Virus record (IMG/VR): IMGVR_UViG_3300049567_000003
Location: 1 to 33,847 of that record
Direction: 5' to 3' (one strand)
Length of the DNA: 33,847 nt
DNA from: a virus
In this document: in pieces, positions 5,933 to 33,847 of the stretch
Layout: every line of letters starts with the position of its first letter
Position numbering within the stretch: the stretch's first letter is position 1
Made by a program: the position numbers and the translations under genes
The notes under the pieces: model-generated
Databases searched by the model: none
Seen by the model: the letters and a program-made list of their open reading frames with translations, nothing else
Told to the model about the DNA's origin: nothing

Positions 5933-5952
5933 GTAAGAAGGGAGGGTTGGCG

Positions 5953-13086: not shown

Positions 13087-13959
13087 ATGACCCAGCTCGC
13101 CTGGGACCAGGTCGGCCAGCGTTTCTTCGAGACGGGCGTCGACCGCGGGGTCCTTTACATTCCCAACAGCTCCGGCGTTTACAACATCGGCTACGCCTGG
13201 AACGGCCTGGTAACGGTGACTGAGTCTCCGTCCGGTGCTGAGGCCAACCCGCAGTACGCCGACAACATCAAGTACCTGAATCTCCTTTCCTACGAGGAGT
13301 TCGGTGGCACTATCGAGGCGTTCACCTATCCGACTCAGTTCGGTCAGTGTGATGGCACGGCTTCTCCGGTGGCCGGCGTGTCTGGTGGTCAGCAGGACCG
13401 AAAGATGTTCGGCCTTTCGTACCGCACCAAGCTCGGTAACGACACTGATGGTCCGGACCACGGCTACAAGCTGCACCTGATCTGGGGTGCCCTGGCGGCT
13501 CCTTCGGAGAAGGCTCACACCACCATGAACGACTCGCCGGAGGCACTGACCTTCAGCTGGGACTTCACGACCACTCCGGTTCCGTGGGCTGGTCACAAGC
13601 CTACGGCCAGCTTCGAGATCGTATCCAACACGGTCGACTCGACGGCTCTGACCAATCTCGAGAACTTCTTGTACGGCACGGTCGGTACTGACCCGTCTCT
13701 GCCTCTTCCGGCGGATGTCGTCGCGCTGTTCTCGGGCTCGGTTGTCGGTGTCGCTCCCGGTGTTCCGACCTACGACGCTGGTACGGACATCATCACGATT
13801 CCGTCGACCACGGGTGTTCAGTACTACGTCGATGGCGTGGCTGTCACGTCCGGTGCTTTCGGTCCGATCACCTCGTCCAAGGTGGTGACGGCTTCTCCGA
13901 AGTCGGGTTACTACTTCACTCAGCCTTCGGTCGACCGCTGGCTCATCACGTTCGCCTGA
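13087..13959 (+). CDS. Major tail tube protein with extra C-terminal domain
   Basis: A 290-residue protein. The tube part (1 to about 218) begins AWDQVGQRFFETGVDRGVLY and includes YAWNGLVTVTESPSGAE, IEAFTYPTQF and a conserved DHGYKLHLIW block, all repeated in a paralogue at 14547. Residues about 224-290 form an added domain ending SGYYFTQPSVDRWLITF, resembling the end of the capsid fusion (AGYYFANDANTLWSF). Codon choice is strongly GC-ending, like the capsid gene, which fits an abundant virion protein. A site AGGAG overlaps the tail terminator stop just upstream. It would polymerise in rings around the tape measure. Confidence 0.88.
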   Translation: MTQLAWDQVGQRFFETGVDRGVLYIPNSSGVYNIGYAWNGLVTVTESPSGAEANPQYADNIKYLNLLSYEEFGGTIEAFTYPTQFGQCDGTASPVAGVSGGQQDRKMFGLSYRTKLGNDTDGPDHGYKLHLIWGALAAPSEKAHTTMNDSPEALTFSWDFTTTPVPWAGHKPTASFEIVSNTVDSTALTNLENFLYGTVGTDPSLPLPADVVALFSGSVVGVAPGVPTYDAGTDIITIPSTTGVQYYVDGVAVTSGAFGPITSSKVVTASPKSGYYFTQPSVDRWLITFA

Positions 13960-25603: not shown

Positions 25604-26590
25604 ATGACCGACTACCTAAAGGCCACAGGTAGCACAGGCACCATGATGATCCGTGACGACGGCCTTACAGTCTCTTTCTGGCTTAAGGCCGGCTCGACCA
25701 CGTTCAATCACAATCTGCCATGGGGATACGTGGTAGCGGGTGTTACAAGCCCCACTCTTGAATTCGACTTTGTGAGTGGTGGCGCATGGCAGATGCTCAA
25801 ATCTTGGAATCTGACAGCCACTCAGACTGTCACCTTCAAGATCTATGATTCGGGTACGACTGGTCTTGGTGGTCCTACCACCTTCAGTCAGCTTATTACT
25901 CGAACCACAGTTCCTTCAGCTCCAAGCACACCAATCTTGTCAAATGCTACTGCAACGACCATCGACGCCAAATTTACCGATGGAGCAACCGGCGGTTTAG
26001 CAATTGATCAAAGACAGCTTGGTTGGAGCACGTCTATTGTCGGCCCTACGTCGACGATGGCATCCGACGGAACAGACACGATTACGGGCCTGACAGCAGG
26101 TACGACATATCACGTCTGGGCTCGCACTCACAACGCAAACGGTTGGAGTGCTTGGTCTGGATATTCGACGATAACAACCCCAAAGGTTCCTTATCCTCCG
26201 GATATTCCTTCCGCCACAAACATTGGTCCGGTATCCGTCACTGTAGTATGGACACCACCATCGGCTGGAGATGGCGGATCGCCAATCACAGCGTACGAGG
26301 TCTCTTACGGGACCGACCCCCTCGTACATGCGGCAAGCGTGACGGGAACATCCCCCCTAACTGTAACAGGTCTACAACCAGGCACAAGGTACTACTTCTG
26401 GGTTAGAGCTCAGAATGCGGTCGGATGGAGTGCATATTCTGCTCCGGTCGTTGCTACCACGATCGCCGGAGTTCGACTCAAGGTGGGCGCTGAGTGGAAG
26501 ATTGCTATCCCCTATGTAAACGTAGGCGGAGTTTGGAAGCTAGCGCAGCCTTTCGTTCGATATCTAGGCGTCTGGAAAGGGACCGTCTAA
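25604..26590 (+). CDS. Minor tail / fibre protein with two fibronectin type III domains
   Basis: A 328-residue protein. The N-terminal 100 residues are beta-rich. Two fibronectin type III domains follow: about 105-197 (with TGLTAGTTYHVWARTHNANGW) and 199-289 (with VVWTPPSAGDGGSPITAYEV and LQPGTRYYFWVRAQNAVGW). The C-terminal tail repeats an Trp-Lys pattern (AEWKIAIPYV, GVWKLAQPFV, GVWKGTV) seen at the ends of phage fibre proteins. It likely makes surface contact with the host. The start is 8 nt after the previous stop. Confidence 0.8.
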   Translation: MTDYLKATGSTGTMMIRDDGLTVSFWLKAGSTTFNHNLPWGYVVAGVTSPTLEFDFVSGGAWQMLKSWNLTATQTVTFKIYDSGTTGLGGPTTFSQLITRTTVPSAPSTPILSNATATTIDAKFTDGATGGLAIDQRQLGWSTSIVGPTSTMASDGTDTITGLTAGTTYHVWARTHNANGWSAWSGYSTITTPKVPYPPDIPSATNIGPVSVTVVWTPPSAGDGGSPITAYEVSYGTDPLVHAASVTGTSPLTVTGLQPGTRYYFWVRAQNAVGWSAYSAPVVATTIAGVRLKVGAEWKIAIPYVNVGGVWKLAQPFVRYLGVWKGTV

Positions 26591-26606
26591 TCCGAAGGAA
26601 TTATTC

Positions 26607-26993
26607 GTGGATACTTGGTGGCAGATTTTGCTGACTGCTGTGGTCACCGTTACCGCTTCATCAGGGTTTTGGACTTACGTAAATCGTAAGGACGAACGGA
26701 AGACCATGAACGACAAGCTCGTTATGGGTCTCGCATACGACAAGATCATCGGAATGGGCATGAGCTATATCGAGCGAGGCTGGATCACCAAGGATGAATA
26801 CGAGGACTACCGAAAGTACCTCTATGAGCCGTACAAGGCTCTCGGCGGAAACGGGGTGACTGAGAGGATTATGGGTGAAGTCACCAATCTTCCTCTACTA
26901 CCTCGTAGCAAATATGCGTCAGTCATTCAAGCTGCAAAGTCGAACACTGACGTTCCAGTACCACACGTTTCTGCCGAAGAGTTGAATGTCTAG
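26607..26993 (+). CDS. Membrane-anchored small protein of the lysis region
   Basis: A 128-residue protein with one N-terminal transmembrane segment (about 6-22) and a cytoplasm-like domain with YDKIIGMGMSYIERGWITKDEYEDYRKYLYEPYKALGGNG, a pattern I recall beside phage holins. GTG 26607 is supported by GAAGGA (26594-26599). It precedes the holin-like gene by 13 nt. A second holin or holin regulator is possible; a structural role is the alternative. Confidence 0.65.
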   Translation: MDTWWQILLTAVVTVTASSGFWTYVNRKDERKTMNDKLVMGLAYDKIIGMGMSYIERGWITKDEYEDYRKYLYEPYKALGGNGVTERIMGEVTNLPLLPRSKYASVIQAAKSNTDVPVPHVSAEELNV

Positions 26994-27006
26994 AAAGGAT
27001 ATTTAG

Positions 27007-27354
27007 ATGTTGTTCAACGATCGCGTCTACAAGATTCTCAAGGAAATCGCCCTGGTGTGGCTTCCTGGTCTTGGTGCGGCATATTTCACGATCGCTTCGA
27101 TCTGGCATCTCCCTGCGGCAGAGCAGGTTGTCGGTACGATTACGGCGATTGACACTTTCATGGGCTTGATTCTCAAGGCTTCTACGGCATCGTACAACAA
27201 GAGTGACCTGAAGTATGATGGAAATCTTCAGATCGTCGATACCGAAGATGGCTCTCAGCTCCGGTTCGGGAATCTGGATCGAAAGGCTCTGGAAAAGGAA
27301 TCGGTCACACTCAAGATGGTTACGAATTCGGACACTGCTCAGCCGGTTTCGTGA
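27007..27354 (+). CDS. Holin, r1t-like
   Basis: A 115-residue protein with two hydrophobic segments (about 16-33 and 40-58), the second carrying LPAAEQVVGTITAIDTFMGLIL, close to the r1t-type holin pattern. The C-terminal half is polar. It would open the membrane at the end of infection. AAAGGA (26994-26999) precedes it. The endolysin is not adjacent but at 2144-2935. Confidence 0.72.
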   Translation: MLFNDRVYKILKEIALVWLPGLGAAYFTIASIWHLPAAEQVVGTITAIDTFMGLILKASTASYNKSDLKYDGNLQIVDTEDGSQLRFGNLDRKALEKESVTLKMVTNSDTAQPVS

Positions 27355-27357
27355 CCT

Positions 27358-27381
27358 CGCGGGGTAAACAATGCGTATAAT
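27358..27381 (+). promoter_or_regulatory. Promoter-like element, copy 1
   Basis: TCGC, 4 nt, TAAACA, 5 nt, TATAAT (27376-27381), followed by GAGACCCC. It lies in the 52-nt gap between the holin gene and the coiled-coil gene at 27407. It shares exact spacing with four other copies. No canonical TTGACA -35 box is seen. Confidence 0.75.
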
Positions 27382-27406
27382 GAGACCCCATATTTAGGAG
27401 GACGCA

Positions 27407-27913
27407 ATGTTTGCCCTAAACTCTATCGAAGAACCCACCAGCCTCATCGAGCGAATCAACTCCCTGATCGTGAAGCTGGCCGGTGTTGCTGAAGGAAGCC
27501 AAGAATACACGGATATGGTGGCTCAGCTTATCCAGCTCTACAAAGCACTGGAACTCGACATCAACGTCAAGACGAAGATGCTCGACACCTACGGAAAGCA
27601 GAACGAAATCGAATCCCGAATCGCTCAGCTCGAACTTGAAACCGAACTCAAGCAGTCCATCGCGGACCGCGACATGCGAGTGAAGGAATTGGAACTCGAA
27701 CTGAAGATTAAGGAATCCGACGTAACTGTTGACCTCCGTAAGGTCGAGACCGAACTCAAGACGAAAGAAATCGAGGACCGCCGCCGCGTGAGCCCGGACA
27801 CTGTAGCCGCCATCGCCGCGAACGTCGTTGGAATCCTGCTCATCATCGGCCACGAACGAATCAACGTTGTGACCTCGAAGGCTTTGGGATTCATCCCGAA
27901 GGTTTTCCGCTGA
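27407..27913 (+). CDS. Coiled-coil protein with a C-terminal hydrophobic segment
   Basis: A 168-residue protein. A long heptad-like coiled coil (about 45-130) rich in Glu, Lys and Leu is followed by a probable transmembrane segment (about 134-150, AAIAANVVGILLII) and SKALGFIPKVFR. It is probably membrane-tethered and oligomeric. It starts 6 nt after AGGAGG (27396-27401) and is downstream of promoter copy 1. It is followed by a terminator-like hairpin. Function unknown; a spanin-like or regulatory role is conceivable. Confidence 0.75.
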   Translation: MFALNSIEEPTSLIERINSLIVKLAGVAEGSQEYTDMVAQLIQLYKALELDINVKTKMLDTYGKQNEIESRIAQLELETELKQSIADRDMRVKELELELKIKESDVTVDLRKVETELKTKEIEDRRRVSPDTVAAIAANVVGILLIIGHERINVVTSKALGFIPKVFR

Positions 27914-27941
27914 CAAGCCAAAACTAAACATAGTCTGAACG

Positions 27942-27985
27942 AGAGGGCATGTGAGAAGAACATATCTTGCATGCCCTCTTAGTTT
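27942..27985 (+). terminator. Terminator-like hairpin
   Basis: A perfect 10-bp stem: AGAGGGCATG (27942-27951) and CATGCCCTCT (27970-27979), with an 18-nt loop that can pair further (AAGA/TCTT). It is followed by TAGTTTC. It closes the coiled-coil gene cassette just before promoter copy 2. The T-tract is short, so termination efficiency is uncertain. Confidence 0.7.
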
Positions 27986-28009
27986 CGCAAAATTTACAAG
28001 GGGTATAAT
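27986..28009 (+). promoter_or_regulatory. Promoter-like element, copy 2
   Basis: TCGC, 4 nt, TTTACA, 5 nt, TATAAT (28004-28009), followed by GAAACCCC. It sits 6 nt after the preceding terminator-like hairpin and 24 nt before the small gene at 28034. Confidence 0.78.
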
Positions 28010-28033
28010 GAAACCCCTATCTAAGGAGACATC

Positions 28034-28210
28034 ATGAAGAAGTTCGTCGACAACCTCAAGCGCAACGCGCAGGAGAACCCCGTCCAGACCCTCATCGTCG
28101 CCGCACTTGTGCTTACCGCTATGGCCAAGTTCGTCGAATCTGCAGGTCACGCCGCCGGTTCCCGCGCCTACGCCCGTCAGGTCGACCATCGAATCAACCG
28201 TACCCGATAG
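28034..28210 (+). CDS. Small membrane protein (58 residues)
   Basis: A 58-residue protein beginning MKKFVDNLKRNAQENP. A basic N-terminus is followed by a hydrophobic helix (about 18-32) and a Gly/Ala-rich helix, then a basic end (QVDHRINRTR). AAGGAG (28023-28028) and promoter copy 2 lie upstream and a terminator-like hairpin follows, so this is a self-contained cassette. Codons are strongly GC-ending, suggesting high expression. No known family is recognised. Confidence 0.72.
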   Translation: MKKFVDNLKRNAQENPVQTLIVAALVLTAMAKFVESAGHAAGSRAYARQVDHRINRTR

Positions 28211-28220
28211 AACTCAAACC

Positions 28221-28245
28221 AGAGCCCCACAAGGGCTTTAGGTTT
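28221..28245 (+). terminator. Terminator-like hairpin
   Basis: AGAGCCC (28221-28227) pairs with GGGCTTT (28233-28239) over a 5-nt loop, and TTTT occurs shortly after (28243-28246). It follows the 58-residue gene and immediately precedes promoter copy 3. Confidence 0.65.
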
Positions 28246-28246
28246 T

Positions 28247-28270
28247 CGCGATATTTACAACCCCTATAAT
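28247..28270 (+). promoter_or_regulatory. Promoter-like element, copy 3
   Basis: TCGC, 4 nt, TTTACA, 5 nt, TATAAT (28265-28270). Downstream differs from the other copies (GAAGAGGAC rather than GARACCCC), and no protein-coding start follows before copy 4, so it may drive a non-coding RNA. Confidence 0.72.
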
Positions 28271-28371
28271 GAAGAGGACGGAAGGAATTTCCAGTTCAAC
28301 CCTGGAGACTCTTCTCGCAAATCCTACATCGGATTTAAAAAATTCCCCGGTGGGCCTTTCGATAAAAGCCT
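28271..28371 (+). ncRNA. Candidate small structured RNA with a T-arm-like hairpin
   Basis: No ATG-led gene occurs between promoter copies 3 and 4. The expected transcript has a closing stem GAAGAG (28271-28276) with CTCTTC (28309-28314). Inside is a perfect 5-bp hairpin TCCAG-TTCAACC-CTGGA (28290-28306) whose 7-nt loop matches the tRNA T-loop consensus. Then comes AAATCC/GGATTT (28319-28324, 28331-28336). There is no room for D and anticodon arms, so it is not a tRNA; it could be a tRNA-like or other regulatory RNA. Confidence 0.45.
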
Positions 28372-28395
28372 CGCAAGATTTACAGGGCCTATAAT
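28372..28395 (+). promoter_or_regulatory. Promoter-like element, copy 4
   Basis: TCGC, 4 nt, TTTACA, 5 nt, TATAAT (28390-28395), followed by GAAACCCC. It is 27 nt before the small gene at 28423. Confidence 0.78.
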
Positions 28396-28422
28396 GAAAC
28401 CCCCTACGAAAGGACCCCCATC

Positions 28423-28575
28423 ATGGACAAGACCGCCGAGACCATCGTCGTCACCGCCGCCAAGATCGTCATCGTCGTCGGAGTGAGCGTCATCGCCACT
28501 CGCGTCGTCGGTAAGATCGCGGACCGCGCTGCGAAGAAGGCCGCCGAGAAGGACCAGATCGAGACCGCCAAGTAG
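28423..28575 (+). CDS. Small membrane protein (50 residues)
   Basis: A 50-residue protein beginning MDKTAETIVV. A single hydrophobic helix rich in Val and Ile (about 8-29) is followed by a charged Lys/Ala/Glu helix (about 31-50). GAAAGGA (28408-28414) and promoter copy 4 lie upstream, and a terminator follows its stop by 13 nt. Codons are almost all C/G-ending. It resembles the other tiny membrane proteins here in plan, but homology is unclear. Function unknown. Confidence 0.7.
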   Translation: MDKTAETIVVTAAKIVIVVGVSVIATRVVGKIADRAAKKAAEKDQIETAK

Positions 28576-28588
28576 ACCACTCAACCAT

Positions 28589-28619
28589 AAGACCCTAACA
28601 AGGTCTTTTGGTTTTTTTC
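28589..28619 (+). terminator. Rho-independent terminator
   Basis: AAGACC (28589-28594) pairs with GGTCTT (28602-28607) over a 7-nt loop, followed by TTGGTTTTTTT. The T-run is the strongest in the region. It closes the cassette of the 50-residue membrane protein. Confidence 0.78.
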
Positions 28620-28626
28620 TTATGCT

Positions 28627-28693
28627 CCCTCACTGGATCAAAGACGGCATTCCTTTTAGAGAACTGGAGGGGGTGTTCGAGATCCAGTGAGGG
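28627..28693. repeat. 13-bp perfect inverted repeat with 41-nt spacer
   Basis: CCCTCACTGGATC (28627-28639) is perfectly complementary to GATCCAGTGAGGG (28681-28693). Inside the spacer, ACTGGA (28663-28668) can also pair with TCCAGT (28683-28688), so two alternative hairpins compete for the same right arm. The right arm ends 1 nt before a TATAAT (28695-28700). It may be an operator or a switching RNA element. The tRNA-like GTTCGA in the spacer does not build a T stem. Confidence 0.6.
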
Positions 28694-28694
28694 T

Positions 28695-28700
28695 TATAAT
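28695..28700 (+). promoter_or_regulatory. Possible -10 box of a different promoter type
   Basis: A perfect TATAAT lies 26 nt before the start at 28727, directly after the inverted repeat. The upstream TCGC and TWWACA boxes of the recurrent element are absent, so this would be a distinct, perhaps operator-controlled promoter. Confidence 0.45.
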
Positions 28701-28726
28701 TATCCACCTCTCCGAAGGAGAAAGAA

Positions 28727-28900
28727 ATGCTGAAGCTCGTGACATTCGTTTTCTATCCCTTCCTTTGGGGTTGGAACGAGATCTGCGAACAGGTACGCGA
28801 GTACAAGCTCGAGCGTGCGAAGTGCAAGCGCGAAGACGACGACATGTTCACGAAGTGGGTCATCGAGAAGAAGACCCAAGCAACACCTCTGTTTCGATAA
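28727..28900 (+). CDS. Small protein with aromatic N-terminal hydrophobic segment (57 residues)
   Basis: A 57-residue protein beginning MLKLVTFVFYPFLWGW, an aromatic hydrophobic anchor (about 3-17), followed by a charged helix with EQVREYKLERAKCKRED and a basic end. GAAGGAG (28714-28720) supports the ATG. It is followed 25 nt later by the next small membrane gene. It probably lies at the membrane; function unknown. Confidence 0.65.
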   Translation: MLKLVTFVFYPFLWGWNEICEQVREYKLERAKCKREDDDMFTKWVIEKKTQATPLFR

Positions 28901-28925
28901 AGACGATATTTAGAAAGGACATCCA

Positions 28926-29105
28926 ATGTCACCTCTAGGCTGGATCGTTGTTGCGCTCGGTGCATGGTTCGGCATCGCATTCATCCTTCTGGGGGTATGG
29001 ATGGGTTTGACGAATTATCACATTCGTAAGAACAGCAAGGGCCTCGACACTCATACTTCCGCAACATTCCAGGAGCTCCAGGATGGATTTTCGGCAACTG
29101 TCTAA
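28926..29105 (+). CDS. Small membrane protein (59 residues)
   Basis: A 59-residue protein beginning MSPLGWIVVALGAWFG. One strong transmembrane segment (about 5-28) is followed by a basic YHIRKN stretch and a polar tail. GAAAGGA (28913-28919) supports the ATG. Its last 23 nt overlap the DUF6353-like gene at 29083, so the two are probably translated together. Function unknown. Confidence 0.65.
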   Translation: MSPLGWIVVALGAWFGIAFILLGVWMGLTNYHIRKNSKGLDTHTSATFQELQDGFSATV

Positions 29106-29847
29106 TCAGGCTCAGCGTTTTCTAGTAGAGAATTCGCCGGCCATCCTCACGGGAATCGGAGTTGCGGGAACTCTGACAACCGCTTATCTCACAGGTCGAG
29201 CCACCTTCAAGGCGGCCGAGATCATCAACCAGAAGAATCTCGAGAAAGATATCTCAGATCTGTACATGCCGCCAAAGGAGAAGCTCAAGCTAGTTTGGCG
29301 TTTGTATGTTCCCGCCGCCGGGACCGCTGCACTTACGATCGCTGCGATCATCTACGCCAATCGAATCTCGGACAAGCGAGCAGCGGCTTTGGCGGCCGCA
29401 TACGCATTTTCTCAAACGACCTTCGAAGAATACAAGGACAAGGTCATCGAGAAGATGGGTCCGAAGAAGGAAGAACTCGTTCGGGCGGAGATCGACCAGG
29501 AACGATTCAACGAGGTGTCCGCGGATAAGAACGTGGTCATCATCGGCAAGGGAGACGTCCTTTGCTTCGAAACGTTCACTGGTCGGATTTTCATGAGTGA
29601 CATGGAAACCCTTCGTAAGGCCATGAATGACATCAATCTCGAAATCATCAATGGTGTCTATGCATCGTTGACTGATTTCTATCATCTGGTCGGTCTCCCT
29701 TCGACTGGCGTTTCAGATGATCTCGGATGGAACACTGATCATCCACTCAAGCTGAATTTCACAACGATTCTGTCGGATGACAATCGTCCTTGTCTTGCCT
29801 TCAGTTACAACATCCATCCGGTCAAGGATTACAACCAGTTCAACTAG
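29083..29847 (+). CDS. DUF6353-like membrane protein
   Basis: A 254-residue protein. Two transmembrane segments (about 17-38 and 71-92, the second YVPAAGTAALTIAAIIYAN) flank a short loop. The rest is soluble: a charged middle and a C-terminal domain (about 191-254) with GVYASLTDFYHLVGLP, then LGW and LKLNFTT. This C-terminal pattern recurs in the proteins at 31408 and 32722. The overall plan matches DUF6353 phage proteins as I recall them. AGGAG (29071-29075) precedes it. Role unknown; probably acts at the host membrane. Confidence 0.68.
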   Translation: MDFRQLSNQAQRFLVENSPAILTGIGVAGTLTTAYLTGRATFKAAEIINQKNLEKDISDLYMPPKEKLKLVWRLYVPAAGTAALTIAAIIYANRISDKRAAALAAAYAFSQTTFEEYKDKVIEKMGPKKEELVRAEIDQERFNEVSADKNVVIIGKGDVLCFETFTGRIFMSDMETLRKAMNDINLEIINGVYASLTDFYHLVGLPSTGVSDDLGWNTDHPLKLNFTTILSDDNRPCLAFSYNIHPVKDYNQFN

Positions 29848-29906
29848 TACGTGCATATCCTGTTTAACCCTTTTGTCAAAGACACCCAAAATGAAAGGTA
29901 AAAAAA

Positions 29907-30098
29907 ATGAGCGAGATCATCACGGACGCCGTCGAGGTCGCCGAGAGCACCGGTCTGAGCCCCAAGAAGAAGCTCGTCATCGCAGCCTCCGTTGTTCTGG
30001 TCAGCGCCAGCCTGGCCCTGGTCGCTCTTCGAGCCCGGTCCAAGAAGAAGTCCGAGATCGTCGTCGAGGTCGTGGAAGACTCGACCCCCAACGCCTGA
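29907..30098 (+). CDS. Small membrane protein (63 residues)
   Basis: A 63-residue protein beginning MSEIITDAVEVAEST. A basic KKKL stretch precedes one transmembrane helix (about 23-41, VIAASVVLVSASLALVAL), then ARSKKKSEI and an acidic tail. Codons are strongly GC-ending. It follows the DUF6353-like gene by 59 nt that contain no clear terminator. The gap holds TTTAAC, 5 nt, TGTCAA, then GACACCC, at most a degenerate relative of the recurrent promoter. Function unknown. Confidence 0.7.
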   Translation: MSEIITDAVEVAESTGLSPKKKLVIAASVVLVSASLALVALRARSKKKSEIVVEVVEDSTPNA

Positions 30099-30150
30099 TA
30101 TAACTTCATTTCACCCCGCAAAATTCCGAAATTAGTTTGAAGGGTTATTC

Positions 30151-30693
30151 ATGCTCAGCGAGACCATCAAGTACACCGACTTCAACGGTGTCGAGCAGAC
30201 GGACACATTTCATTTCCACCTCTCCAAGGCGGAGATCGCCGAGCTGCATCTCATCTACGGCGAGGACAATGATTACAAGGCGTATCTGACCAAGATCGTC
30301 AAGGCCAACGACGGTAAGGCGATCGTCGAGCACTTCAAGAAGATCATTCGGGACTCGGTCGGGAAGAAGTCCGAGGACGGGAAGCGATTCATCAAGTCCG
30401 ACGCGATCGCCGACGATTTCATGCAGTCGGCAGCATACGACGAGTTCTTCCTGAAGCTTTTCAAGGAGCCCGACTACATGATCACGTTCATCACGGGTCT
30501 CTTCCCGAAGGATATTCAGGAACAGATTCAGGTGGAAGAAATCAAGAGTCTTCCTGGTGCGGACGTCGAGGAGGACACCCGTCCGGCTTGGATTCGGGAG
30601 AATCGTGATCCGACCAAGGCCGAACTTATCGGGATGACTTCAGCTCAGATGGCTGACGCGATGCGTCGACGAGTCATGAACGATTCGAAGTAA
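30151..30693 (+). CDS. Tail assembly chaperone-like protein (displaced)
   Basis: A 180-residue protein. It begins MLSETIKYTDFNGVEQTDTFHFHLSKAE and continues with EHFKKIIRDSVGKKSEDGKRFIKSD, DDFMQSAAYDEFFLKLF and FITGLFPKDIQEQ. I recall this order in siphovirus tail-module proteins annotated as tail assembly chaperones. Here it lies about 12 kb past the tape measure start, among small membrane genes, so its role is uncertain. GAAGGG (30140-30145) precedes ATG 30151. It may act in tail assembly despite its position, or have been recruited to another job. Confidence 0.55.
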   Translation: MLSETIKYTDFNGVEQTDTFHFHLSKAEIAELHLIYGEDNDYKAYLTKIVKANDGKAIVEHFKKIIRDSVGKKSEDGKRFIKSDAIADDFMQSAAYDEFFLKLFKEPDYMITFITGLFPKDIQEQIQVEEIKSLPGADVEEDTRPAWIRENRDPTKAELIGMTSAQMADAMRRRVMNDSK

Positions 30694-30750
30694 TAGCACA
30701 GGGATGAAGGGGATCGGCAAGGGCGCTTCTGGGGAATGTAATTATCGTGT

Positions 30751-30787
30751 CCTCTTCCGGGTGCTGATCTTAAACGACCGCCGCGGC
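30751..30787. repeat. Imperfect direct repeat, copy A
   Basis: A 37-nt segment containing CCGGGTGCTGATCTT and AAACGACCGCC, repeated at 30883-30919 with about three quarters identity by eye. Confidence 0.55.
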
Positions 30788-30882
30788 AAGCCTCAGACAA
30801 GAGGGGTGCCCTTCATCTAAGCAAGACGAGATTGGGTGGGAATCAGCAGGTTGGGTTCTGTGGTTGGGGGTCTCCCGCGGAG

Positions 30883-30919
30883 CCCTCTCCGGATGCTGAA
30901 TTTCAAACGACAGCCGAGC
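30883..30919. repeat. Imperfect direct repeat, copy B
   Basis: The second copy contains CCGGATGCTGAATTT and CAAACGACAGCC. It lies 132 nt after the first and leads into the three-way hairpin that precedes promoter copy 5. Confidence 0.55.
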
Positions 30920-30983
30920 ATCGATGATATTCGATAGGGCACTATGCGAATGCTCTCGATAAAAAATTGCGCCCCTCACTCGT

Positions 30984-31007
30984 CGCGAAGTAAACAACGC
31001 CTATAAC
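30984..31007 (+). promoter_or_regulatory. Promoter-like element, copy 5
   Basis: TCGC, 4 nt, TAAACA, 5 nt, TATAAC (31002-31007), followed by GAGACCCC. It is 26 nt before the gene at 31034 and 3 kb from the other copies, with identical internal spacing. Confidence 0.75.
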
Positions 31008-31033
31008 GAGACCCCATATGAAAGGAAACTTAA

Positions 31034-31345
31034 ATGGACATCGAAGAAGCTGAAACCAAGAAGATGACCGCTCGCGAATACGCGAAGCTCGGCGTCGGAC
31101 TCGTTGTCGGTTCAAGTGCATTCTTCGTCGTCAGCTCAATCGTCAAGGACAACGTCAACCCGGAAACCCTGCCCCAGAAGGCAAAGGCAGCCGTGGGAAC
31201 GTTCATCATTGCCACGATTGTTGCTGACGCCGCAAGCAGGCACACGGACCGAATGATCGACAAAGTCGCCGACTCGTGGAATAACGCGAGCAAGAAATTC
31301 AAGGATCAGCAGAAGAAGATCCAGACCGAAGCAACCGAATCATAA
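31034..31345 (+). CDS. Small membrane protein (103 residues)
   Basis: A 103-residue protein. A charged N-terminus (AREYAKLG) is followed by two hydrophobic segments (about 18-38 and 53-68) and a basic coiled C-terminus rich in Lys and Gln. AAAGGA (31021-31026) and promoter copy 5 lie upstream, and a terminator hairpin follows 15 nt after the stop, again a self-contained cassette. Function unknown. Confidence 0.72.
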   Translation: MDIEEAETKKMTAREYAKLGVGLVVGSSAFFVVSSIVKDNVNPETLPQKAKAAVGTFIIATIVADAASRHTDRMIDKVADSWNNASKKFKDQQKKIQTEATES

Positions 31346-31360
31346 ACCTCTCATAACTAG

Positions 31361-31387
31361 AGCCCGTAATACACGGGCTTTTAGTTT
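31361..31387 (+). terminator. Rho-independent terminator
   Basis: AGCCCGT (31361-31367) pairs perfectly with ACGGGCT (31373-31379) over a 5-nt loop, followed by TTTAGTTTT. It closes the 103-residue membrane protein cassette. Confidence 0.8.
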
Positions 31388-31407
31388 TCTCTCCGGAACG
31401 AGGAAAT

Positions 31408-32067
31408 ATGGAAGACTACCCCGCAAACAACGCCGCCTCGCGGGCTCCGAAGCCGGAAGCGCCTGAATTGAAGAAGGTGGACGAGAAGAAGATCGAGGTC
31501 GTTGTCACCGGAGGGGTTTCTCGTCGTAAGAAGCCGTTGTCGAAGCGATTCACAGAGATGTTCTTTGGCGACACCTTGAAGAGCGCGGCCAAGTACGTTT
31601 TCGAAACTGTTCTTTTGCCGGCGACTAAGGACGCAATCGCAGACATGTTGTCTTCTGGAACCGAGAGAATCCTGTATGGAGATTCTCGGTCGCCAAGTCG
31701 TCGTGCTGGACTCCGCTCTGGAAGGAATTCCAGCGATCCAGTAAGCTACAATCGCTTTCACCCAAGTTCTCAGCAGGCTTATCGACGGGAAGATCCTCGT
31801 CAGGCTCGCAATGTTCGAGACTCCCACGATTTCGATGACATCATTCTAGCCACGCGTCCCGAGGCCGAGATTGTCATCGGAAAGATGTTCGACATGATCG
31901 GTAAGTACGAGCAGGCCTCGATCGCGGATCTCTATCAGATGCTGGGGATCACTCCGAAGTATACGGACGAGCGATGGGGTTGGACTGACTTCCGAGGTGC
32001 CGGCGTGCAGCGAATCAATGGCGGAGGCTATTTGCTCGATCTTCCTCGACCGATTCCTTTGGACTAA
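31408..32067 (+). CDS. Protein sharing its C-terminal domain with the DUF6353-like pair
   Basis: A 219-residue protein. The N-terminus is charged and probably disordered (1-45, with KKVDEKKIEVVVTGG). A helical segment with KSAAKYVFETVLLPATKDAIADML (about 54-80) may associate with the membrane. A basic Ser/Arg-rich linker (about 90-135) leads to a C-terminal domain (about 140-219) with ASIADLYQMLGI, WGW and GGGYLLDLPRPI, matching the ends of the proteins at 29083 and 32722. GAGGAAA (31400-31405) precedes the start. Function unknown. Confidence 0.7.
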   Translation: MEDYPANNAASRAPKPEAPELKKVDEKKIEVVVTGGVSRRKKPLSKRFTEMFFGDTLKSAAKYVFETVLLPATKDAIADMLSSGTERILYGDSRSPSRRAGLRSGRNSSDPVSYNRFHPSSQQAYRREDPRQARNVRDSHDFDDIILATRPEAEIVIGKMFDMIGKYEQASIADLYQMLGITPKYTDERWGWTDFRGAGVQRINGGGYLLDLPRPIPLD

Positions 32068-32069
32068 CC

Positions 32070-32297
32070 ATGAATGTTGGTAGTAACGAAGAACTTGATC
32101 GACTCCAAGCTATCGAGGTTGCTGTGGTCGATACTTATAGAGAGTTGATGGATGGCTCTCATGCTGGATGTTGCTATAACGATCTACGGCGGTTGTTCCG
32201 AATCGCAGTTCCAACCATTCGAGATCTGTGTTTTCACCTAGGGTCCGATGGAAAAGAGATGACCAAAGTCATCATCAATAAATATCATGAACAGTAG
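32070..32297 (+). CDS. Hypothetical protein (75 residues)
   Basis: A 75-residue acidic protein beginning 2 nt after the previous stop, with LDRLQAIEVAVVDTYRELM and a helical C-terminal part. No strong ribosome-binding site is seen, so translation may be coupled to the upstream gene. Two adjacent Cys (CC at 38-39) are present. No family is recognised. Confidence 0.5.
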   Translation: MNVGSNEELDRLQAIEVAVVDTYRELMDGSHAGCCYNDLRRLFRIAVPTIRDLCFHLGSDGKEMTKVIINKYHEQ

Positions 32298-32329
32298 CAT
32301 AACGAATCCTCTCTGGATTAGGAACTCCA

Positions 32330-32575
32330 ATGGCCGGAAGCTATTCGCATGCGGTTACGGACACAGGACAACTCCGTAATATTCATTTCATGGGTATCGC
32401 TGCCGAGAATCTTGGCGATGCTTATGAGACGATCGAAGAAATGTACGGGATGATCTGGCTCTTGGCCCATGGCGATCCGTATCTTGTTGAGATAGCTCGC
32501 CAAAGCTATGAGCTTGGGATCTCATCGTATTCTCCAGGAAGACAAGATCCAAACGAAAAACCAGTCGAAGAATAA
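32330..32575 (+). CDS. Hypothetical helical phage protein (81 residues)
   Basis: An 81-residue protein. The pattern SYSHAVTDTGQLRN, then AENLGDAYETIEEMYGMIWLLAHGDP and ARQSYELG recurs in small uncharacterised phage proteins. It is mostly helical, with a polar C-terminal tail. TAGGAAC (32319-32325) is a weak ribosome-binding site. It follows the 75-residue gene by 32 nt. Function unknown. Confidence 0.65.
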   Translation: MAGSYSHAVTDTGQLRNIHFMGIAAENLGDAYETIEEMYGMIWLLAHGDPYLVEIARQSYELGISSYSPGRQDPNEKPVEE

Positions 32576-32581
32576 CGGTAA

Positions 32582-32719
32582 ATGAAACCCCTCCAACTCC
32601 GTGAAAAACTGATCTCGGTATATCCGAAATCGGAGCGTTGGCGCAAACGCGTCAATAAGATGACCGACAAGCAAGTATTGGCCGTCCTGTTCAGGATGCG
32701 TCTAGAAGGAAAGGTTTAG
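32582..32719 (+). CDS. Small basic protein (45 residues)
   Basis: A 45-residue protein beginning MKPLQLREKL, with KSERWRKRVNKM and DKQVLAVLFRMRLEGK. This W-basic-M and QVLAV pattern is common in tiny uncharacterised phage proteins. It fills the gap between two genes and ends 2 nt before the next ATG. The ribosome-binding site is weak. Role unknown. Confidence 0.6.
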   Translation: MKPLQLREKLISVYPKSERWRKRVNKMTDKQVLAVLFRMRLEGKV

Positions 32720-32721
32720 TA

Positions 32722-33627
32722 ATGAGTCTCAAGTCTATTGCAAATGCTCTGACGAGCAAGGTCGGACTCAAGTCCCTTGTAGTTCAGAAGCACACTCCCG
32801 CCATTCTGTTCGGTGCCGGCGTGGTCGGTGTGGTGGCCACTGTCGTCCTGGCCAGTCGGGCAACTCTCAAGCTCGAAAGTGTCATCGATCTGGCTCAGGC
32901 CGATCTGGCTGACGTCGAGAAGGCCAAGGCTCTCGAAGATCCTCGTTACACCGAGACCGATCGTCAGCGAGACATGGCGATGATCTACGCCAAGGCGACG
33001 ACCAAGATCGTTCGGCTGTATGCTCCGGCGGTCATCGTGGGCACGATTTCGATCGGTGCTCTGACGGGCGCTCACGTGATTCTGAATCGTCGGAATGCCG
33101 CTCTCACGGCTGCTTACGCCATCGTCGACAAGGGCTTCCGTGCCTATCGCGAGCGAGTCGTGGGTGAGCTGGGCGAGGAGAAGGATCTGGAGTTCTTGTA
33201 CGGAACTCGTGAGCGAGAGATTGTCGAGGAGACCGAGACGGGTCCGGTGGTCAAGACCATCAAGGAGATCGACCCGCAGGGCTTCTCGATGTACGCGCGC
33301 TTCTTCGATGAGACCAATGTGAACTGGAATCGTCAGCAGAGCTTCAACCAAATCTTCCTGCGCTGCCAGCAGAACTACGCAAACGATCTACTCAAGAGTC
33401 GAGGCTATGTCTTCCTGAACGATGTCTACGACATGCTCGGGATGGAGCGTACGAAGGCCGGCCAGATCGTAGGTTGGGTTCTCGACGGCGGCAACAGCGA
33501 CAACTACATCGACTTCGGCATCTTCACTCGTGGCAACCCGCACGACTCGATGCGTTTCGTGGTCGGCGAAGAGCGATCCATCCGTCTCGACTTCAATGTC
33601 GACGGGAATATTCTCGATTTGATCTAG
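32722..33627 (+). CDS. DUF6353-like membrane protein, second copy
   Basis: A 301-residue protein. Two transmembrane segments (about 26-46, AILFGAGVVGVVATVVLA, and 94-117, YAPAVIVGTISIGALTGAHV) are separated by a polar loop rich in Asp/Glu. The soluble remainder has ALTAAYAIVDKGFRAYRERV and a C-terminal domain with GYVFLNDVYDMLGM (228-241), GW and SIRLDFNVDGNI. The plan matches the protein at 29083. AAGGAAAGG (32707-32715) precedes the start. Codons are more GC-ending than in the genes just upstream. Confidence 0.7.
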   Translation: MSLKSIANALTSKVGLKSLVVQKHTPAILFGAGVVGVVATVVLASRATLKLESVIDLAQADLADVEKAKALEDPRYTETDRQRDMAMIYAKATTKIVRLYAPAVIVGTISIGALTGAHVILNRRNAALTAAYAIVDKGFRAYRERVVGELGEEKDLEFLYGTREREIVEETETGPVVKTIKEIDPQGFSMYARFFDETNVNWNRQQSFNQIFLRCQQNYANDLLKSRGYVFLNDVYDMLGMERTKAGQIVGWVLDGGNSDNYIDFGIFTRGNPHDSMRFVVGEERSIRLDFNVDGNILDLI

Positions 33628-33639
33628 AAAGGCAATATC

Positions 33640-33847
33640 ATGGACAAGAAGGTTCTGATCTTGGGTGGGGTGGGAGTTTCTCTCATCTCGACGGCGGCTG
33701 GAGCTGTCGGAGGGTACTACTATGCCAAGAAGAAGCTGTGGAACGAATTCTCGAACCGTCTCGAAGAGGAGGTCGAGAGCACCAAGAAGTTCTACAACAC
33801 GTTGACCAAGAGGGAGTTCCGTACTCCGGGAGAGGCTCTGAGGGAGC
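33640..33847 (+). CDS. Membrane-anchored protein, partial at the window end
   Basis: The first 69 residues of a protein that continues beyond the window. The N-terminus MDKKVLILGG is followed by one transmembrane helix (about 5-25) and a YYYAKKKLWNEF stretch, then a charged segment with EEEVESTKKFYN and FRTPGEAL. GAAAGG (33627-33632) supports the start, 12 nt after the DUF6353-like gene. It fits the series of small membrane proteins in this region. Confidence 0.7.
   Translation, partial: MDKKVLILGGVGVSLISTAAGAVGGYYYAKKKLWNEFSNRLEEEVESTKKFYNTLTKREFRTPGEALRE

Follow-up and report, generated by a model that had tools for sequence, protein, structure and literature searches.

The stretch analysed here (the window) is one whole IMG/VR record, IMGVR_UViG_3300049567_000003, 33,847 bases long and classed as linear. 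It comes from a tailed phage, with genes for a terminase, portal, capsid-protease, tape measure and holin at 5947, 8457, 10393, 18893 and 27007, and among the small genes downstream of the holin it carries the repeated element TCGC-N4-TWWACA-N5-TATAAY (N, any base; W, A or T; Y, C or T) that is the subject of this analysis. A pattern scan recovered exactly five copies, all on the plus strand and with the invariant internal spacing described in an earlier sequence-only reading of this DNA, whose coordinates were each one base too high (Table 1). All five are intergenic; equal occurrence inside coding regions, which that reading had named as evidence against a promoter, was not seen. No copy appeared in 100 dinucleotide shuffles of the window, no sixth was found in it at up to three mismatches, and with the last box relaxed to TATRRY (R, A or G) the remaining near matches in the window all carry three mismatches. 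The spacing and sequence of the element are far from chance. The last box reads TATAAT in four copies and TATAAC in one; GA follows in all five, and GARACCCC, as had been noticed before, in four. Between 26900 and 31500 no sigma-70-type -35/-10 pair was found on the plus strand, the fixed boxes sitting at other positions, which agrees with the earlier remark that this is not a TTGACA promoter.

The same reading had placed the element in front of small genes, and copies 1, 2, 4 and 5 do precede genes of 168, 58, 50 and 103 amino acids (aa) with hydrophobic stretches, whose start codons lie 24 to 27 nucleotides (nt) past the end of TATAAT. Behind copy 3 a small non-coding RNA can be drawn tentatively: the fold forms, but its stability equals that of shuffled sequences (z -0.06). 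An Rfam search of 26500-33847 at E <= 1 gave no match, and a transfer RNA (tRNA) scan of the window found none. From the evidence set out below we consider it probable that these elements are promoters for an RNA polymerase of the phage lineage itself, a single-chain enzyme of the two-barrel (double-psi beta-barrel) type that belongs to protein family phrog_4291, and that transcription would start at +1, the base directly after TATAAT.

Table 1. Copies of the element and the units around them in the window.
Feature	Position	Strand	Description
Element copy 1	27357..27381	+	TCGC 27357-27360, TAAACA 27365-27370, TATAAT 27376-27381; predicted start G27382; 2 nt past holin stop (27354)
Small gene 1, 168 aa	27407..27913	+	Coiled coil and C-terminal hydrophobic stretch; phrog_5818; start codon +26
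Probable terminator hairpin	27943..27984	+	GAGGGCATG...CATGCCCTC, T-rich tail; between unit 1 and copy 2; read off the sequence
Element copy 2	27985..28009	+	TCGC, TTTACA, TATAAT; predicted start G28010
Small gene 2, 58 aa	28034..28210	+	One hydrophobic segment; phrog_18827; start codon +25
Probable terminator hairpin	28223..28245	+	AGCCC...GGGCT, T-rich tail; just 5' of copy 3; read off the sequence
Element copy 3	28246..28270	+	TCGC, TTTACA, TATAAT; predicted start G28271; not followed by any gene that has a ribosome-binding site
Tentative small non-coding RNA	28271..28314	+	GAAGAG...CTCTTC closing stem, inner hairpin with 7-nt loop
Element copy 4	28371..28395	+	TCGC, TTTACA, TATAAT; predicted start G28396
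Small gene 3, 50 aa	28423..28575	+	One strongly hydrophobic segment; start codon +28
Intrinsic-terminator-like hairpin	28589..28616	+	T tail; 3' of small gene 3
Element copy 5	30983..31007	+	TCGC, TAAACA, TATAAC; predicted start G31008
Small gene 4, 103 aa	31034..31345	+	Hydrophobic segments; phrog_7539; start codon +27
Intrinsic-terminator-like hairpin	31359..31391	+	T tail; 3' of small gene 4

A motif search with the exact spacing over the window and its relatives, of the kind that the sequence-only reading had suggested, showed the element to be lineage-wide and a spacer of 5 to be far commoner than one of 6. Across IMG/VR the spacer-5 pattern followed by GA matched at least 120 stretches, with up to six copies per contig and GC contents of 0.30 to 0.58, and the same pattern with spacer 6 gave four matches in the whole collection; a scrambled pattern with 14 fixed bases gave many matches, as chance predicts, with one contig holding two copies among the matches listed. 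The fetched loci contain 388 distinct copies, 323 followed by a ribosome-binding site and start codon and 65 not, and the distance from the end of the element to the start codon is most often 24 to 26 nt. A scan of bacterial genomes returned 10 metagenome-bin contigs, mostly of Firmicutes. Among named phages, a nucleotide search with the window gave one weak match, to Gordonia phage Pherobrine, which led us to the literature on Cluster DJ, where a '50-bp motif' in five copies in Gordonia phage Vardy (PMC9671010) and a 43-base motif in five copies in Conley (PMC10868162) were each taken as a sigma-70 -10 sequence, and where TATAAT, small membrane-protein genes and terminators were noted in the motif region (PMC9671010, PMC10868162). 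That motif and the window's element are the same: sequence and spacing match, and both are intergenic in a small-gene region past the tail genes. On rescanning, Vardy has 8 copies at up to two mismatches and the Pherobrine stretch 13 at up to three. The Cluster DJ papers apply the sigma-70 reading to one cluster and do not note the upstream boxes shared across the lineage, the start position or the polymerase, and we found no link between motif and polymerase in the literature, subscription papers lying outside the search.

An alternative that we regard as unlikely would have the host RNA polymerase and its main sigma factor read TATAAT as a -10 box, with a phage activator bound at TCGC...WWWACA in place of the -35 contact (compare T4 MotA) and starts about 7 nt downstream. 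TATAAT is indeed the sigma-70 consensus, a -35 box is lacking, the conserved boxes are placed where an activator could sit, and the authors on Vardy and Conley read the sequence in the sigma-70 way (PMC9671010, PMC10868162). Several features of the transcribed side nevertheless argue for an earlier start. The predicted 5' ends of tRNAs behind the element lie at +4, +5, +5 and +9, and at +2 in Faecalibacterium phage FP_oengus, so that with transcripts beginning at +7 four of these five tRNAs would have a truncated acceptor stem. The Shine-Dalgarno sequence begins at +1 to +6 in 19 of 241 gene copies (for example TATAAT followed directly by AGGAGGTGAACTATG), and these 19 units would lose it. In nine named phages +1 is G or A in 87 of 87 copies, while +7, the sigma-70 start position, is C in 53%. 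Behind gene-less copies, bases +1 to +6 pair with the arm that precedes the T-run, with a mean score of 11.05 against 9.40 for arms swapped between copies (standard deviation 0.20, 300 swaps), and a homologous RNA family keeps its outer stem through sequence change (GAGAAGA/TCTTCTC, GAGAAAA/TTTTCTC, GAAAGAG/CTCTTTT); with a start at +7 such RNAs would be without their 5' arms. Taken at the level of sequence, these features indicate that transcription starts at the purine directly after TATAAT, and a start 6 to 8 nt downstream, as in a sigma-70 promoter, is probably not used. A start at that purine puts TATAAT at -6 to -1, so that it would not be a sigma-70 -10 box, and the register first proposed, with TCGC near -31, TWWACA near -20 and TATAAT as the -10, probably gives way, on the tRNA ends, Shine-Dalgarno sequences and stems, to one with the boxes near -25, near -17 and at -6 to -1.

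The letters of the element in distant phages bear on the same question. A gapped-word search that did not take the motif as input, run on 1706, P078 and FP_oengus, found eleven copies of TTTTACA-N5-TATAGT in 1706, nine copies among those listed in P078, mostly TTTTACA-N5-TATAAT, and twelve copies of RCGC-GAAA-AWNCA-N5-CTTTAT-G in FP_oengus, with the register unchanged. Streptomyces Rima mixes TATAGT with TATAAT; in Microbacterium Camille the box reads TATGGT or TATGAT. The geometry is thus kept in distant phages while the letters of the last box change, and drift of the box with the exact 25-base geometry kept is not expected of a sequence needed by the host polymerase; in the copies listed, the TATAGT of 1706 and the CTTTAT of FP_oengus, the latter a poor sigma-70 box, therefore count against host recognition. 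The polymerase of FP_oengus is 45% identical to that of Arthrobacter phage Circum. Of the phage-specific promoter reader proposed from the sequence alone, the phage-specific factor stands; an activator or sigma contact on the host polymerase probably does not, the lineage's own polymerase being the best candidate.

Co-occurrence of element and polymerase was examined in both directions. Of the 60 motif contigs that are 28.9 kb or longer, 44 encode phrog_4291 (counting two short contig-edge matches, G043 and G093, and leaving out a weak match in G018), and so do 31 of the 32 that reach 42 kb; none of the 40 control contigs, which scrambled or mis-spaced patterns had picked out, encodes it. Conversely, of 28 contigs picked by similarity to the polymerase, without looking at the motif, 24 carry 2 to 22 copies at up to one mismatch, the copies sharing one strand with a single exception, and none carries the backward pattern; no control contig out of 22 has two copies and 2 have one each. 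A protein search places phrog_4291 in 250 named-phage records (Arthrobacter 95, Gordonia 55, Streptomyces 54, Lactococcus 13, and others).

The phrog_4291 proteins of Arthrobacter Circum, Gordonia Pherobrine, Rhodococcus Pepy6 and Lactococcus 1706 are 891 to 1029 aa long. Their labels vary between RNA-dependent RNA polymerase, helix-turn-helix DNA-binding protein, hypothetical protein and structural protein (for example L133:5656-8331 and L132:3284-5980). All four, and all 20 contig homologues read, contain ADFDGD, a DxDGD catalytic motif whose three aspartates and glycine do not vary across alignments A1 and A2, and Pfam recognises helix-turn-helix domains near both ends and a weak RNA-dependent RNA polymerase match mid-protein. 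A single-sequence AlphaFold model reached a predicted local distance difference test score (pLDDT) of 39, so we used an alignment-based model (pLDDT 80). In Foldseek the best match of this model was QDE-1 (E 2e-11), followed by maize RDR2 and gp62 of phage P74-26 (E 2e-8), with global template-modelling scores of about 0.3, and the large subunits of cellular polymerases rank after P74-26 gp62. Neither Circum gp98 nor the alignment, searched by sequence against solved structures, matched a polymerase; fold comparison alone revealed the resemblance. Its motif and modelled fold make a DNA-dependent single-chain RNA polymerase the most likely identity of the protein. The non-structural proteins common to Circum, Pherobrine, Pepy6, 1706 and FP_oengus include a DNA polymerase, helicase, nucleases, a single-stranded DNA-binding/annealing protein, membrane proteins of the DUF6353 type and several of unknown function, and phrog_4291 is the sole helix-turn-helix protein recognised among them; the activator that host transcription would need has no other lineage-wide helix-turn-helix candidate. 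One further protein, orf47 of 1706 ('positive regulator of sigma'), was also weighed as a candidate reader, but we set it aside since it matches no PHROG and nothing in Pfam below E 0.1.

The motif, its spacing and distribution, the two-way co-occurrence, the box variants and the sequence features that call for a start near +1 are computed, whereas we infer that the polymerase itself reads the element. Its helix-turn-helix domains would probably contact TCGC at -25 to -22 and WWWACA at -17 to -12, boxes that lie about one turn of the helix from each other; the enzyme would melt TATAAT at -6 to -1 and initiate at the G or A that follows. Each promoter would drive a short unit, a small membrane-protein gene, a tRNA or a small structured RNA, often with an intrinsic terminator at its end. 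More speculatively, the polymerase may enter with the virion and carry out early transcription of the small-gene region; the sole hint of such entry is that the polymerase homologue of 1706, orf75, is annotated as a structural protein. That a lineage reaching from Lactococcus and Faecalibacterium phages to those of Arthrobacter, Gordonia and Streptomyces shares the whole scheme, in which a helix-turn-helix-bearing polymerase reads a bipartite element without sigma, enters with the virion and fires one-gene units (membrane peptides, tRNAs and a new small-RNA class), is a proposal that we make tentatively.

Several observations weigh against transcription by the phage polymerase. Its gene is absent from the window, which is a fragment and stops within the small-gene region; in Circum and other complete relatives it lies near the right genome end. 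In favour of the polymerase, the window's capsid-protease groups with the lineage whose named members encode phrog_4291. A 46-kb motif contig (G022) shows no polymerase, and a 61-kb contig (G105, the contig of L328) has a clear polymerase and a single degenerate copy of the element; the promoter of G105 may differ from the element. The capsid-protease co-occurs with the motif equally well (33 of 33 motif contigs, one weakly, against 0 of 11), and in the main genera of named phages it is counted exactly as often as the polymerase. Motif, polymerase and capsid-protease are thus inherited together, so the association marks a lineage and cannot by itself name the reader, and Fisher values overstate significance because the contigs are related. 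The identity of TATAAT with the sigma-70 -10 consensus in most members is a coincidence that needs explaining. In copies at L111 (minus strand) and L025 the closing stem of the RNA runs back into TATAAT, with ATTATA on its 3' side, which a start at +1 does not account for; these units give the impression of closing with an inverted counterpart of the promoter.

The polymerase may also need a cofactor. A possible cofactor of the polymerase is phrog_4303, a protein of 85 aa encoded beside it in Circum, Pherobrine, Pepy6, 1706 and FP_oengus (L133:8343-8600 and homologues). That such a separate phage protein does the main promoter recognition, in the manner of a sigma factor, seems to us improbable: although it is conserved beside the polymerase in five phages, and although published work leaves open whether YonO requires further factors (PMC5467207), no DNA-binding domain is recognisable in phrog_4303, whereas the polymerase has a helix-turn-helix at both ends. 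We give very little credence to the idea that the element works at the level of RNA or translation, like the start-associated sequences of Cluster K, and only incidentally looks like a promoter: most copies do lie 24 to 26 nt 5' of a start codon, but the element also precedes tRNAs and small RNAs that have none, conservation declines past +4, and T-rich terminator-like sequence stands ahead of 168 of 387 copies.

Promoter recognition by the phage polymerase can be set beside several known systems. In T7-type promoters TATA directly precedes the start G. The element resembles them in its TATA abutting a predicted G start and in the purine-rich first transcribed stretch, but the T7 polymerase fold is unrelated and the resemblance is at most functional. 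The single-chain two-barrel polymerases gp96 and gp64 of phage P23-45 have their own promoter motifs with starts mapped experimentally (PMC10770324). As proposed for the element, phage two-barrel polymerases there use their own motifs, and there too the link between motif and polymerase came partly from presence and absence among relatives, and P74-26 gp62, among the closest solved structures to the phrog_4291 model, is a homologue of gp64, the non-virion RNA polymerase of P23-45; the P23-45 motifs, however, are AT-rich and GC-rich, and the host phylum and the proteins are others. The non-virion polymerases of phiKZ, whose promoter is TATG with the G as the start, and AR9, with AACA-N6-T-A/G and the last base as the start (PMC5312081), are two-barrel enzymes whose conserved bases abut a purine start, but they are multi-subunit, AR9 promoters lie in uracil DNA, and spacing and letters differ. 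YonO of the Bacillus prophage SPbeta, likewise a single-chain two-barrel phage polymerase, transcribes one late operon from a promoter whose sequence was left undetermined (PMC5467207). The start-associated and extended start-associated sequences of mycobacteriophage Cluster K and of Cluster EF, of a kind invoked in the sequence-only reading for some mycobacteriophages, are also repeated conserved sequences ahead of small phage genes (PMC3203893, PMC7302621), but that comparison fails on position: they sit at the ribosome-binding site, whereas the present element stands upstream of the whole leader, its end most often 24-26 nt 5' of the start codon, and has tRNAs and small RNAs behind it as well.

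Two recurring RNAs were seen behind the element. One, a structured small-RNA family directly behind it at L010:2139, L095:3817 and L128:16297 (Pepy6) and, on the minus strand, at L022, L042, L101 and L105, has the conserved core GACACGAA-GYGT-GG...CC...CGAGTTTTCGTTGGACCGT and compensated changes in 9 of 15 predicted pairs; Rfam found one tRNA in Pepy6 and otherwise no match at these loci. The other, in L026, L087 and L102, reads GAGAGGACGTTATGAGG...CTGAAAACTGCAGATACTTCGG..ACCATGCG..CTCT. Arrays of small membrane-protein genes have been described in Arthrobacter phages of Clusters AM and AU and in Rhodococcus phages Pepy6 and Poco6 (PMC5513430). In Pepy6 the annotated start of gp040 (L128:13885-14250) overlaps the element copy at 13902, and the true start is probably the ATG downstream of that copy.

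Within the window, 289 nt at 30694-30982, 5' of copy 5, hold no clear gene; an outer stem GATGAAGGG...CCCTTCATC encloses this stretch together with other hairpins. It matched nothing in Rfam, and its second half folds only mildly better than shuffled sequences. The gene at 30151-30693 encodes a phrog_4282 protein whose Circum homologue matches the tail assembly chaperone family PF23803, placed here among the small genes past the holin and away from the tape measure gene. The genes at 29083-29847 and 32722-33627 encode two paralogous membrane proteins (phrog_2152), a pair conserved across the lineage, with Circum homologues that match DUF6353. No relatives of the window's 510-aa tail protein were found.

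The element offers a precise candidate promoter, with natural variants, for a polymerase encoded in 250 phage records, many of them from easily grown teaching-laboratory hosts. For single-chain polymerases of the YonO type, a 2017 paper left the promoter sequence open (PMC5467207). If the element is read as we suggest, annotating TATAAT in phages of this lineage as a sigma-70 -10 box should be avoided. In Actinobacteria and Firmicutes the polymerase-promoter pairs may find use as orthogonal ones. For the phages themselves, this reading of the element would explain the gaps and strings of tiny genes in genomes of the lineage, and it points to small RNAs that have gone unannotated.

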